DNA of 64,000 nucleotides from Desulfobacterales bacterium. Lineage in GTDB: Bacteria; Desulfobacterota; Desulfobacteria; Desulfobacterales; JARGFK01. The translations under genes were made by a program, and so were the position numbers. Location of the stretch: the NCBI GenBank assembly GCA_029211065.1, contig JARGFK010000009.1, positions 1-64,000 of the forward strand, read 5' to 3'. Below are positions 49,492 through 52,886 of this stretch, piece by piece. The notes beneath the pieces are model-generated. The model was not told where the DNA came from, ran no database searches, and worked only from the letters and a program-made list of their open reading frames with translations. Position 1 is the first letter of the stretch. Each line of letters opens with the position of its first letter.

Positions 49492-49547
49492 TGGCTCCCC
49501 GATCCCGCCACGGCGGGATTGAACATACAGTCCCGCCTCCGGCGGGA
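49492..49547 (-). pseudogene. tRNA-Asn 3'-end remnant with two hairpin replacements
   Basis: Read on the minus strand it ends TCGGGGAGCCA like the true tRNA-Asn. The T-arm half is replaced by hairpin 49503-49518 and the anticodon side by hairpin 49531-49547 (TCCCGCC-N-GGCGGGA). Between them only TTCAA and a few bases of the tRNA T-arm survive. The upstream hairpin starts directly after the stop codon of the GIY-YIG gene. Confidence 0.7.
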
Positions 49548-49808
49548 TTAATAGCCATTCTTCTGGCCATCCAGGAAACGCCGGATCCCTCGTTTTTTGA
49601 TCTTGCGCTCGAGCCGAACCGATTCGGAACCGGTCCTCACCGGTTTGGACCACACCAGTCGCCACGGCCCCTGAAATCGTTTCGTTGTCTTCGAAAGGTC
49701 ATTTCCCGGGTCGTTGTGTTGCGCGATCCGGGTCTCCAGGTCGTGGGTCTGACCGCAATAAAAGCGACCGGAACTGTCGCTCTGCAGGATGTAGACCCAA
49801 AAGGGCAT
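49548..49808 (-). CDS. Small GIY-YIG nuclease-family protein, copy 1
   Basis: The 86-residue protein shows the GIY-YIG fold: [19 protein letters not shown] at the start (Tyr pair and YCG), LETRIAQHN with the Arg, and [15 protein letters not shown] near the end with the Glu. It is the URI-type minimal nuclease domain without a DNA-binding partner. The ORF opens 219 bases earlier, but that extension is a remnant of another gene in another frame, so the ATG at 49808 is used. Directly downstream lies a tRNA-Asn 3' remnant, exactly as for copy 2 at 52172-52456. Confidence 0.85.
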
Positions 49809-49811
49809 TGC

Positions 49812-49993
49812 AGCGGTCCCTCGAACCAGCGGAACTCGACGGTTCCCCGGTACCAGACGTTGTGCAGGTTCACCCCGTAGTAGCGGTTCGAGTCGAAGTG
49901 CTGCGGTTCGATGCAGGGCGTTGTCCTGCCGGGAACGGACGCGAAGGCCATGGCGAAGCGCGAAAGCCGCCGTTGCAGGCAGCGGATTACAAT
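49812..49993 (-). pseudogene. Amidoligase-like gene fragment
   Basis: In a frame different from that of the GIY-YIG gene, the minus strand encodes [15 protein letters not shown] followed by [14 protein letters not shown] and [13 protein letters not shown]. These resemble the C-terminal part of putative amidoligases (PF12224), where RYxGLNLH and GTxEFRxF are conserved. The frame has a stop at 49994-49996 and no start, and similarity ends where the GIY-YIG gene begins. The fragment therefore appears to be an old gene interrupted or truncated at the GIY-YIG insertion point. Confidence 0.55.
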
Positions 49994-50026
49994 CTACGAG
50001 AGCTCGCCGGGGTAGGCCTGAAGGCA

Positions 50027-50151
50027 TGTGTCAAAGTATCGACCCTTGCCAACATGTGTCGATATCTACACACAAGTGCGCCGACGAACGGCGAAGTTCT
50101 ATTGTGTTTTTTTCTTGACATTTTTACAAATATGTCGATAATTTGACACAT
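50027..50151 (+). promoter_or_regulatory. abiE promoter and inverted operator sites; leaderless start
   Basis: TTGACA (50115-50120) and GATAAT (50137-50142) with a 16-base spacer place transcription start next to the ATG at 50150, implying a leaderless or near-leaderless mRNA. A 17-base element at 50027-50043 (TGTGTCAAAGTATCGAC) recurs inverted with one change at 50134-50150, covering the -10 box and start codon. A third palindrome, TGTGTCGATATCTACACA, lies at 50055-50072. AbiEi proteins are known autorepressors that bind inverted repeats, so these are candidate operators. Confidence 0.6.
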
Positions 50152-50764
50152 GCAGATAAAGGACAGAAAACCCAACGAGCAGACAGTGCTGGAACTCGCC
50201 CGCAACTCGGGCGTGGTGAGTGCCTCTGAGGTACGGTCTCTCGGCATTCATCCCGAGTACCTGCGCCGACTCTGTGCCAAGGGTGAGCTTGTGCGGATAG
50301 AACGGGGGCTTTATCGGCTTCCAGACGCAGAGGTAACTGCTCATCATGGCTTGGTACAAGCAGCGAAGGCGATTCCCAAGGGCGTCGTGTGCCTTCTGTC
50401 AGCCCTGCGCTTTCACGAGATCGGAACGCAGGCCCCTCACGAGGTGTGGATGGCTATCAACCGCAGGGCTGCCCAACCTCGGATAAAGCACCAGAAAGTA
50501 CGTATCGTTCTTTTCTCCGGCAAGTCCCTCACGGAGGGCGTCGAAGAACACACCATCGAAGGTGTGTGGGTGAGCATCTATAATCCTGCTAAGACCGTGG
50601 CGGATTGTTTCAAGTATCGGAACAAGATCGGGCTCGATGTTGCACTCGAGGCCCTGCGCGACGTTCTGCGTGGCCGCAAATGCTCGACCGACGAACTGTG
50701 GAAGTATGCGAAGATCTGCCGGGTAACGAAAACGATGCGTCCTTACATGGAAGCGACCGTATGA
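50150..50764 (+). CDS. abiEi: Type IV toxin-antitoxin antitoxin AbiEi
   Basis: The 204-residue protein has an N-terminal winged-helix (ELARNSGVVSASEVRSLGIHPEYLRRL). It continues with GELVRIERGLYRLPDA and a C-terminal AbiEi domain with VCLLSALRFHEIGTQAPHEVWMAI and YNPAKTVADCFKYRNKIG. It represses its own operon and counters the nucleotidyltransferase toxin AbiEii. No ribosome site precedes the ATG, matching the leaderless promoter. The stop overlaps the toxin start (ATGA). AbiE cassettes give abortive-infection phage defence. Confidence 0.93.
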   Translation: MQIKDRKPNEQTVLELARNSGVVSASEVRSLGIHPEYLRRLCAKGELVRIERGLYRLPDAEVTAHHGLVQAAKAIPKGVVCLLSALRFHEIGTQAPHEVWMAINRRAAQPRIKHQKVRIVLFSGKSLTEGVEEHTIEGVWVSIYNPAKTVADCFKYRNKIGLDVALEALRDVLRGRKCSTDELWKYAKICRVTKTMRPYMEATV

Positions 50765-51678
50765 CCAAGGACAAGCCATCGAACGTCGCTGCGTCTGTTC
50801 GCCAGCGACTTCTCAACATCATCCGAGATACCGGAGATGATCCGAATCTCGTCTGGACGCGCTACGCCACGGAACGGCTCCTCTATCGCCTTTCCGTTTC
50901 GCAATACGCGGGGAATTTCATACTCAAGGGAGCCATGTTGTTCATGGTCTGGACGGGCGAAACATACAGGTCAACGATGGACATGGACTTCCTCGGCCAT
51001 GGTGACGATTCCAGCGAGCGACTGGCTGAAGTATTCCGCAAGGTCTGCGGTGTAGACGTTGAACCTGATGGTCTGGTCTTTGATGCCGACACCGTGGCGG
51101 CTGCGCCTATCCGCGATGAGCAGGAATACCAGGGGCAGCGCGTCACGCTAACCGCCTTCCTCGGCAAGGCCCGCATTCCCGGACAGGTCGACGTGGGATT
51201 CGGCGACGTAGTCACGCCCAAGGCCAAGAAGATCAGCTATCCCACGCTGCTGGATTTTCCTGCCCCGAGCATCCGTGCATGTCCGAGGGAGACGGTTATC
51301 GCCGAGAAGTTCCAGGCCATGGTCATGATAGGCATTGCCAATAGCCGGATGAAGGATTTCTATGACCTGTACGTGCTGGCCCGCGATTTCGCCTTTGGGG
51401 GCAATACCCTTGTCCGGGCAATCAAGGCGACTTTCAAGAGACGGAAGACCGAAATCCCCATTGAACCGCCGCTGGCCCTGACAGATGAGTTCGGCCGCGA
51501 CGAGGTGAAATCGGTCCAGTGGACAGCGTTTATTCGGAAGAACGGTCTCGAAGAAAGCGCACCTGAGTTTTTGGAGTTGCTCTCGCGCCTCAGGGAATTC
51601 CTGTTACCTCCCATGAAAGCAGCTTCCAAGCGTGCCCCCATTCCAACAAGCTGGGCCAAGGGAGGCCCCTGGAGTTGA
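50761..51678 (+). CDS. abiEii: Type IV toxin AbiEii nucleotidyltransferase
   Basis: The 305-residue protein has the nucleotidyltransferase fold of the AbiEii/AbiGii family: FILKGAMLFMVWTG near residue 47 followed by TMDMDFLG with the paired acidic residues near 70. Then come RETVIAEKFQAMV and NSRMKDFYDLYVLARDF (KDxxD) near 190-210. Members transfer nucleotides to tRNA or other acceptors and block growth. The ATG at 50761 overlaps the antitoxin stop; the longer frame start at 50605 lies inside abiEi and is rejected. Confidence 0.93.
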   Translation: MTKDKPSNVAASVRQRLLNIIRDTGDDPNLVWTRYATERLLYRLSVSQYAGNFILKGAMLFMVWTGETYRSTMDMDFLGHGDDSSERLAEVFRKVCGVDVEPDGLVFDADTVAAAPIRDEQEYQGQRVTLTAFLGKARIPGQVDVGFGDVVTPKAKKISYPTLLDFPAPSIRACPRETVIAEKFQAMVMIGIANSRMKDFYDLYVLARDFAFGGNTLVRAIKATFKRRKTEIPIEPPLALTDEFGRDEVKSVQWTAFIRKNGLEESAPEFLELLSRLREFLLPPMKAASKRAPIPTSWAKGGPWS

Positions 51679-51942
51679 AGTCGTGAACCCCCTGGTCCGG
51701 CTTCCGGCTGATACCTATCGGAGCATGGCGTTTGATGTCGACGCAGGGGCTTTGGGGAACCGGGCTGTTAAATTGCCGGATTCAAAAAACGGAGAATGGG
51801 AGAATCAGGAAAGGACATTTGCGAAGACCGAGTCTGAACCCCCACGGTTGCACCGCAACCCCGGGCGGAGAGCATCGAAACAGAGAATCGGGAAGGATGT
51901 GGCCGGAGGCGTAAATCGGCGTGAGTACGGCAGAAACGATGA
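51679..51942. other. Unassigned segment downstream of abiEii
   Basis: No convincing gene is present. A frame open across 51632-51979 has a low-complexity, Arg-rich product and no start. The DNA contains a small hairpin, GGTTGC-ACC-GCAACC at about 51845-51859, and many purine-rich runs. A structured RNA or intron remnant is possible but no family was recognised. Confidence 0.3.
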
Positions 51943-51977
51943 GACCCCGAGGGGATCACCCCACGGGGTCTTGTGTT
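51943..51977 (+). terminator. Hairpin terminator after abiE region
   Basis: GACCCCG (51943-51949) pairs with CGGGGTC (51964-51970), with an inner GGGG-ATCA-CCCC stem, followed by TTGTGTT. The T tract is weak. Confidence 0.5.
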
Positions 51978-51995
51978 AAATAGGAACCGCTGATT

Positions 51996-52049
51996 TCAGC
52001 AATATCGGCCGATGGCTTTGCTCTGGAGAATGTAAACCCAAAATGCCAT
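51996..52049 (-). pseudogene. GIY-YIG gene fragment, copy 3 (first 17 codons)
   Basis: The minus-strand frame from ATG at 52049 reads [17 protein letters not shown] and then stops. It aligns with the first residues of both complete GIY-YIG proteins ([32 protein letters not shown]) and breaks exactly at the YCG motif. It lies just beyond the terminator of the second tRNA remnant, as another decayed unit of the same kind. Confidence 0.65.
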
Positions 52050-52093
52050 TACAAATGCCTTTGTCGATTTTGATAAAGCTGTTTCGAAATATA

Positions 52094-52126
52094 AATGCCC
52101 GGCCGTCGGGAAAACGGCAGGGCATT
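52094..52126 (-). terminator. Terminator of the tRNA-Asn remnant 2
   Basis: AATGCCC (52094-52100) and GGGCATT (52120-52126) with an inner GCCGT/ACGGC stem form a hairpin. On the minus strand it follows the CCA end of the tRNA remnant and leads into TTATATTT. It indicates that the remnant was once a complete tRNA gene. Confidence 0.6.
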
Positions 52127-52131
52127 AAATT

Positions 52132-52206
52132 TGGCTCCCCGATCCCGCCCTGGCGGGATTGAACCTACGACCTAGTGGTTAATCCCGCCTCGGCGGGACT
52201 CTGCCG
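52132..52206 (-). pseudogene. tRNA-Asn remnant 2 with two hairpin replacements
   Basis: On the minus strand the segment reads GGCAGAG, hairpin (52183-52198), TTAACCACTAGG, the TCGTAGGTTCAA of the T-arm, hairpin (52143-52158), then TCGGGGAGCCA. Compared with the intact tRNA-Asn, one hairpin replaces CGGGTGGCTG on the 5' side of the anticodon arm and the other replaces GTCCTAC of the T-arm. The 5' quarter of the tRNA is missing and is replaced by the end of the GIY-YIG gene. Confidence 0.8.
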
Positions 52207-52456
52207 AATGGAACTCTTCCAAGAACCGTTTAATTCCACGCTTCTTAATCTTTCTTTCCAATATGGTAGATTCCCTAAGACTGTCGCACTCTTCTGTCCA
52301 GACTAATTTCCAAGGGCCCCGAAACCGTTTTGTCGTTTTCGACAAACCATAATCAGGGTCATTGTGCTGCCGCAGGCGACGTTCAACATCTCTGCTTTGG
52401 CCACAGTAATAACGTCCAGAGGATTCGCTTTGGATGATGTATACCCAGCTTTTCAT
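52172..52456 (-). CDS. Small GIY-YIG nuclease-family protein, copy 2
   Basis: The 94-residue protein ([57 protein letters not shown]) is a close relative of copy 1. Its last dozen codons (SAESRRGGINH) and stop codon are encoded by tRNA-Asn-derived sequence and the inserted hairpin, so reading frame and tRNA remnant overlap. The ATG at 52456 is three bases after the T tract of the tRNA-Asn terminator and lacks a ribosome site, so expression may be low or driven by read-through from the tRNA promoter. The Tyr, Arg and Glu positions of the nuclease appear intact. Confidence 0.85.
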   Translation of the reverse strand: MKSWVYIIQSESSGRYYCGQSRDVERRLRQHNDPDYGLSKTTKRFRGPWKLVWTEECDSLRESTILERKIKKRGIKRFLEEFHSAESRRGGINH

Positions 52457-52458
52457 AA

Positions 52459-52485
52459 TAAAAAAGGCCGGGGGAGTCCCGGCCT
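52459..52485 (-). terminator. Rho-independent terminator of tRNA-Asn
   Basis: On the minus strand GGCCGGG-ACTCC-CCCGGCC is followed by TTTTTTATT, eight to ten bases after the CCA end of tRNA-Asn. This is a textbook terminator. Confidence 0.85.
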
Positions 52486-52493
52486 GTTATTTG

Positions 52494-52569
52494 TGGCTCC
52501 CCGAGTAGGACTTGAACCTACGACCTAGTGGTTAACAGCCACCCGCTCTGCCAATTGAGCTATCGGGGA
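52494..52569 (-). tRNA. tRNA-Asn (anticodon GTT)
   Basis: The 76-base minus-strand gene has acceptor arms TCCCCGA/TCGGGGA, D-arm GCTC-AATTGGCAGA-GC, anticodon loop CTGTTAAC with GTT, and T-arm GTAGG-TTCAAGT-CCTAC. A discriminator G and encoded CCA complete it. All stems pair. It lies downstream of aspS on the same strand and is followed by its own terminator. It is the only intact tRNA found in the window and the source of the damaged copies nearby. Confidence 0.95.
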
Positions 52570-52763
52570 TCATTTTTTCAACTTTAAAAAACTATATGAG
52601 AATTAATAACTTTTAATTCCACGAGCCCAGTGGTTAATCCCGCCTTTGGCGGGACTCTGCCAATTGAGCTATCGGGGATCATTTTTTCAACTTTAAAAAA
52701 CTATATGAGAATTAATAACTTTTAATTCCACGAGCCCAGTGGTTAATCCCGCCTTTGGCGGGA
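52546..52763. repeat. Perfect 109-bp tandem duplication carrying the tRNA-Asn 5' half
   Basis: Copies at 52546-52654 and 52655-52763 are identical over all 109 bases. Each contains the 5' 24 bases of tRNA-Asn, its AT-rich upstream leader, a short CCACGAGCCCAGTGGTTAA segment with the tRNA anticodon-arm 3' side, and one TCCCGCC-TTT-GGCGGGA hairpin (52638-52654 and 52747-52763). The first copy overlaps the intact tRNA gene. Beyond the second copy another diverged 5' end (GAGCTATTAGGGAT at 52797-52810) is joined to a different hairpin, GCCCCGTCACGGGC. Confidence 0.9.
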
Positions 52764-52886
52764 CTATGCCTGACCTGCCCCGTCACGGGCGCGGTTGAGC
52801 TATTAGGGATTAAATCGAAACCTTTTTGTTAATAGAGAAAGCAACCAAAGTCAAGCAAAAATAAATGAAACAATATCAGCCGGTTC

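Follow-up and report, generated by a model that had tools for sequence, protein, structure and literature searches.

Small GIY-YIG nuclease genes lodged beside tRNA genes with palindrome-bearing tRNA copies: candidate minimal homing-type elements of bacterial chromosomes

The window (the whole stretch of 64,000 nt that was analysed) carries on its minus strand a tandem array of tRNA-Asn sequences and small GIY-YIG nuclease genes. Given a nuclease copy with its own tRNA remnant (copy 1) at one end and two upstream tRNA copies at the other, the array extends over about 49492-52809. Its features are listed in the direction in which the minus strand is read.

52747-52809, minus strand: upstream tRNA copy of greater divergence (about 52764-52809); its palindrome, at 52747-52763, is that of the next copy
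52655-52678, minus strand: upstream tRNA-Asn copy, nt 1-24, 100% identical to the intact tRNA
52638-52654, minus strand: palindrome TCCCGCCAAAGGCGGGA in this upstream copy, then TTAACCAC (palindrome search)
52494-52569, minus strand: intact tRNA-Asn (GTT), by ARAGORN and Rfam RF00005 (69.9 bits)
52460-52484, minus strand: terminator-like hairpin and T-run between the tRNA-Asn and the nuclease start codon, read from the sequence
52172-52456, minus strand: GIY-YIG nuclease ORF of 94 aa (Pfam PF01541, E=2.6e-16)
52199-52205, minus strand: D-arm piece GGCAGAG of the tRNA remnant, within the 3' end of the ORF, read from the sequence
52183-52198, minus strand: palindrome TCCCGCCGAGGCGGGA, substituting tRNA nt ~25-34 (palindrome search)
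52159-52182, minus strand: tRNA remnant nt 35-58, a 24-nt block TTAACCACTAGGTCGTAGGTTCAA, 100% identical to the intact tRNA-Asn
52143-52158, minus strand: palindrome TCCCGCCAGGGCGGGA, substituting tRNA nt ~59-66 (palindrome search)
52132-52142, minus strand: tRNA 3' end of the remnant, CGGGGAGCCA, read from the sequence
51996-52049, minus strand: GIY-YIG fragment of 17 codons and a stop, by sequence reading and tblastn (residues 1-16)
49548-49808, minus strand: copy 1 GIY-YIG ORF of 86 aa (PF01541, E=5.3e-13)
49492-49547, minus strand: remnant of the tRNA at copy 1; it contains two palindromes (49531-49547, 49503-49518) and a tRNA 3' end reaching 49492

The first-pass annotation of this DNA had read the order as tRNA-Asn, terminator, GIY-YIG gene, tRNA remnant and terminator, and ARAGORN, Rfam, PF01541 and the sequence itself confirmed all of these parts. 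The intact gene at 52494-52569 is the sole full-length tRNA-Asn match in the 4.94 Mb assembly. The nuclease ATG lies 3 nt past the T-run of the first hairpin, and a second terminator-like hairpin follows the remnant end at 52132. An exact tRNA repeat about 360 bases apart had been reported; it is the block TTAACCACTAGGTCGTAGGTTCAA, 24 nt long, 100% identical and 353 bp from its counterpart in the intact tRNA-Asn. The nuclease stop codon (TAG, 52172-52174) falls inside this block, in agreement with the earlier reading that the gene ends in tRNA-derived DNA. The term tRNA 3' remnant needed amendment. The sequence is tRNA-derived and ends in CGGGGAGCCA, but it is not a plain 3' copy, since two palindromes substitute tRNA segments. 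The earlier reading had passed over the palindromes, which are the most distinctive feature. Copy 1 repeats the plan, as had been said of 49492-49808, and the third GIY-YIG fragment was also found where it had been placed. The two upstream palindrome-bearing 5' tRNA copies recur with a period of 109 bp. Between the two nuclease copies, at 50150-51678 on the plus strand, lies an AbiEi/AbiEii-type toxin-antitoxin pair (PF13338, PF08843), and the flank of the tRNA-Asn may be an insertion hot spot.

The source genome has the array plan at a third locus as well (contig C103, locus L018), here at tRNA-Asp. An upstream tRNA-Asp copy carries the palindrome TCCCGCCAGTGAAGGCGGGA where its anticodon arm would be, and directly behind the intact tRNA-Asp stands a GIY-YIG gene that has an early stop. 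Assembly artefact was rejected as a general cause, as evidenced by elements in single-contig genomes (G065, G069, G171) and on long contigs (G498, G423, G540).

Relatives of the nuclease were sought by protein search in 389 genomes of the order Desulfobacterales, 26 of which had them, and in 199 genomes of Flavobacteriaceae, 33 of which had them. A fresh validation set of 395 genomes of the phylum Desulfobacterota was searched later. We scored tRNA adjacency by ARAGORN and by BLAST to tRNA sequences, and 21 other GIY-YIG proteins from genomes of the same order served as controls. An intact tRNA gene on the same strand lay within 150 bp at 14/27 loci of the order, 20/30 of Flavobacteriaceae and 19/28 of the fresh phylum set, compared with 0/21 controls; in the first two sets, several loci without an intact tRNA are truncated by contig ends. 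When remnants were counted too and the distance was extended to 400 bp, the figures rose to 25/27, 27/30 and 27/28, compared with 3/21 controls. The stop codon lay in tRNA-derived DNA at 13/27, 11/30 and 5/28 loci, respectively. These counts answer the two questions put earlier about homologues, how often the gene lies near a tRNA gene and how often it ends in tRNA-derived codons, and the adjacency in three samples bears out the suggestion of a family of tiny tRNA-associated nuclease elements.

The family ORFs are ~80-95 aa long and almost wholly covered by PF01541, with no additional DNA-binding region beyond the catalytic domain. The GIY-YIG active-site residues Y6, Y17, G19, R27 and E67 (numbering of the window protein) are invariant, and some nuclease copies are decayed. 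The gene is free-standing beside tRNA genes. A group I intron GIY-YIG endonuclease was considered and rejected: TIGR01453 scored 22.9 bits against a cut-off of 56, and the window had no Rfam intron match. A phage or plasmid origin was likewise set aside, with no phage match, one weak plasmid match and one viral contig. By tblastn there was no match among 50,697 phage records at 1e-5, and the match to a PHROG homing endonuclease was weak and partial, covering residues 3-33 only. A literature search, without most subscription journals and bioRxiv, found no paper on these elements or on GIY-YIG enzymes with palindromes. The family of minimal tRNA-dwelling nuclease elements is apparently previously undescribed.

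The target tRNAs are Asn, Asp and Ala in Desulfobacterota, and Pro, Ala, Arg, Met, His, Val, Phe, Asn and Asp in Flavobacteriaceae. On a protein tree of 81 columns, which is weakly resolved, 18 target changes are needed for 13 groups. Two well-separated nuclease clades sit at tRNA-Asn in Desulfobacterota; clade A includes the window nuclease and has its own 10-residue motif, and clade B has the motif RERFLKSGQGREW.

Two layouts were seen. In Desulfobacterota, an intact tRNA and a terminator are followed by the nuclease, which often runs into a tRNA copy. In many Flavobacteriaceae, the nuclease comes first, and its stop codon is part of the 5' end of the intact tRNA that follows; the upstream copy at such loci can be almost the whole tRNA with one arm exchanged. 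The tRNA copy at L153 still folds like a cloverleaf, with a palindrome as its T arm. At L153, L171 and L173 the stop codon lies in the first nucleotides of the intact tRNA, so that tRNA 5' maturation would cut the stop off the nuclease mRNA. Tandem nuclease units number four in G498, three each in G423, G540 and G571, and two in several other genomes. The tRNA pieces match the intact tRNA of their own locus with a mean identity of 98.2%, and 55 of the 74 are identical to it, compared with about 71% (identity times coverage) for tRNAs of the same type and different sequence elsewhere. This far better match to the local tRNA fits recent duplication or continued conversion.

A comparison with empty sites in relatives had been proposed, and such sites were found. 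Many genomes of the order have tRNA-Asn after the gene aspS, and there is often no family nuclease behind it (L081, L084, L091, L100, L106-L109); at the same site the element is present in G000 and G027. Other GIY-YIG subfamilies stand behind tRNA-Asn at the aspS locus (L082/L150, and L083 by sequence reading), so the site looks like a hot spot for such genes. Remnants older than the GIY-YIG genes, at sites lacking them, had been named as evidence against the element idea, and one relative has a remnant without a nuclease. At L092 in G052, a palindrome-bearing tRNA-Asn copy lies upstream of the intact tRNA-Asn, and a profile search of that genome found no nuclease; tRNA remnants can thus exist alone, and at this locus gene loss and an earlier remnant look the same.

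The window-type palindrome is short and perfect, has the form TCCCGCC...GGCGGGA and substitutes part of the tRNA in broken copies. The pattern TCCCGCC(n1-8)GGCGGGA occurs in 35 places in the source genome, compared with 1 for a reversed control. Across the family, 52 of the 74 tRNA pieces have a perfect palindrome abutting an internal break, compared with 6% of random positions; the 52/74 is approximate, because a few counted pieces belong to neighbouring intact paralogues. These two comparisons indicate that the palindromes are not there by chance. The breaks fall mainly in two arms, at nt 24-30 and at 35 or 46-47 in the anticodon arm and at nt 51-58 in the T arm. The D arm has palindromes inserted into it at L171, L173 and L176, where the tRNA sequence is otherwise almost complete.

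The genome-wide counts that follow use patterns picked from positive loci and genomes that are not independent of one another. The median number of TCCCGCC palindromes was 5 in 25 nuclease-bearing genomes and 0 in 36 genomes without the nuclease (p=2.8e-9). The difference gave p=1.3e-7 by family median and p=0.007 after up to four copies per element were subtracted. Outside the element, palindromes are almost absent from several genomes that bear the nuclease, and G021 has 86 copies without a close nuclease homologue, though with other GIY-YIG genes near tRNAs. A second pattern, TCCGCC(n2-4)GGCGGA, is abundant in clade-B genomes (13-159 copies) but not in most clade-A genomes (p=0.0006; log ratio p=0.0004), and this contrast persists within the genera g41 and g86. 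TCCCGCC counts alone did not differ significantly between clades A and B (p=0.17). RAYT was rejected as the palindrome source, given that counts of the Y1 transposase (PF01797) were uncorrelated with palindrome counts. These results suggest that palindrome type tracks nuclease subfamily and that genome-wide counts track nuclease presence. Dispersed palindrome copies often lie within other repeats. One case is G000 (L007, L015, L021, L022, L030, L032, L040), where the palindrome is inside a dispersed repeat that reads TTGAAGAACCCTGCAG, palindrome, CGGGGAATGCGCTCGC and, further on, CGGTTCAA.

The closest known system is SegB of phages T4 and T6, a free-standing GIY-YIG enzyme that cuts within tRNA genes; its activity is needed for tandem tRNA-segB units, the tRNA 5' end and the 3' end of segB share microhomology, and the motif of the enzyme is RAWTSGAAC (PMC13096335). 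SegB is described there, and in the 2008 work cited therein, as a homing endonuclease of the tRNA region. The elements described here resemble it in that a GIY-YIG enzyme without intron or intein lies beside tRNA genes, in tandem units of tRNA and nuclease, with overlap or microhomology between a tRNA 5' end and the nuclease 3' end. Unlike SegB, they are chromosomal (bacterial), consist of only the ~85-residue catalytic domain, have no phage sequence match and have tRNA copies patched with palindromes. They would work like SegB, without a recognised sequence relationship to it and without an extra DNA-binding region. In our own comparison, RAWTSGAAC reads as the reverse complement of the tRNA T loop. 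The T arm is often the one exchanged for a palindrome in the Flavobacteriaceae copies, which would remove a SegB-like T-loop site. Mobile endonuclease ORFs of fungal mitochondria restore the host gene that they enter and duplicate its 3' end (PMC3630166; Allomyces atp6). There too a nuclease gene enters a host gene, keeps that gene functional and leaves a displaced duplicate end, but the hosts are mitochondrial protein genes rather than tRNA genes, and the enzymes are mostly LAGLIDADG.

Given the SegB precedent and the gene-restoring fungal ORFs, we favour, with a probability of about two in three, the reading that the element is a minimal chromosomal counterpart of SegB, a free-standing GIY-YIG element that spreads by break and repair in tRNA genes. 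Such homing is plausible in the following form. The ~85-residue nuclease would cut an unoccupied tRNA gene, and repair from an occupied copy, through the tRNA homology on both sides, would copy the nuclease gene in. In the order of events that we infer, the join would leave one complete tRNA gene, so that the host survives, and a left-over piece of the same tRNA beyond the nuclease gene. The left-over pieces and their identity to the local tRNA are directly seen. Unequal exchange or break repair between tRNA pieces could then yield the tandem arrays that are observed. The palindromes, which are seen to replace or split tRNA arms, probably remove the nuclease target and probably prevent the copy from functioning as a tRNA or serving as an exact partner in recombination. 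Homing is supported by the proximity to tRNAs in three samples, which control GIY-YIG proteins do not show, the many tRNA targets in two phyla, the close match of the tRNA pieces to the tRNA at their own locus, the empty orthologous aspS-tRNA-Asn sites, the tandem units and the conserved active site. Counting against it, the nuclease might be expected to cut the intact tRNA next to it as well, specificity would have to come from a protein without any region past the catalytic domain, some tRNA copies lack a nuclease (L092), and palindromes are unusual for homing elements.

The palindromes suggest another origin, a GIY-YIG analogue of the REP/REPIN palindromes and their RAYT transposases (PMC3686654, PMC3116915), which we consider possible but rather unlikely. 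The small tRNA-based nucleases would each act on their own palindrome family as hairpins or cruciforms and disperse it in the genome, with one hairpin exchanged for another in tRNA arms. The tRNA pieces would be sites of palindrome entry into the arms and, tRNA arms being natural hairpins, tRNA genes would be the home of the nuclease. Much as in REP/RAYT, one small gene has short palindromes at its flanks, and these also occur elsewhere in the genome and appear to differ by lineage; the enzyme, however, is GIY-YIG and not Y1/HUH, and the palindromes lie in tRNA arms at lower copy number. The excess of palindromes in nuclease-bearing genomes, the TCCGCC pattern that marks clade-B genomes also within g41 and g86, the palindromes abutting tRNA breaks and the failure of Y1 transposase counts to explain palindrome counts all favour this origin. 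It is weakened by the scarcity of palindromes outside the element in several genomes and the drop to p=0.007 on subtraction, by TCCCGCC alone not separating the clades, by G021, by the many dispersed copies inside other repeats and by the choice of patterns from positive loci.

An ordinary, vertically inherited GIY-YIG gene could stand beside tRNAs by chance, with local duplications and unrelated palindromes entering redundant copies. Such a gene is favoured by the tendency of tRNA regions to be hot spots of recombination, by tRNA targets that stay mostly the same within clades and by the decay of some nuclease copies. We judge it improbable in view of the many tRNA types in two phyla, the presence and absence of the nuclease at one orthologous site, the two separate clades at tRNA-Asn, and the junction of the gene with the tRNA, which may be on either side and places the stop codon within tRNA sequence. 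The first-pass annotation had likened the two tRNA ends to attL and attR, and a remnant of a tRNA-integrated genomic island of the integrase type would account for tRNA 3' copies with CCA downstream and for the AbiE pair between two nuclease copies. This analogy found no support, and an island is very improbable: no integrase was recognised among the ORFs examined in the partly domain-scanned window, the 360-bp segment holds the nuclease ORF only, the unit of nuclease and tRNA is found again in dozens of genomes, each time without island cargo, the nuclease can come before or after the tRNA, and palindromes and tandem units are part of the repeats.

If the break-and-repair reading is true, an element of about 360 bp with one ~85-residue gene would be among the smallest of the homing type. 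Such elements would be widespread on bacterial chromosomes and bound to tRNA genes, one of them apparently single-copy and essential. In this way, a selfish nuclease would persist next to an essential gene, of which it would leave one good copy every time. As a kind of element, free-standing homing-type endonucleases are already known; the tRNA/palindrome variant is apparently new. The apparent match between nuclease subfamily and palindrome family offers a direct, testable lead on what makes and spreads one class of short palindromes in bacteria, and this palindrome link is the part that could prove categorically new.

A further observation concerns the intact tRNA gene. At L060 (G014), the upstream tRNA copies read TTAACCACTGAG and the intact gene reads TTAACCATCTTG. 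Given this difference, the intact tRNA may be a chimera with a 3' part brought by the element.
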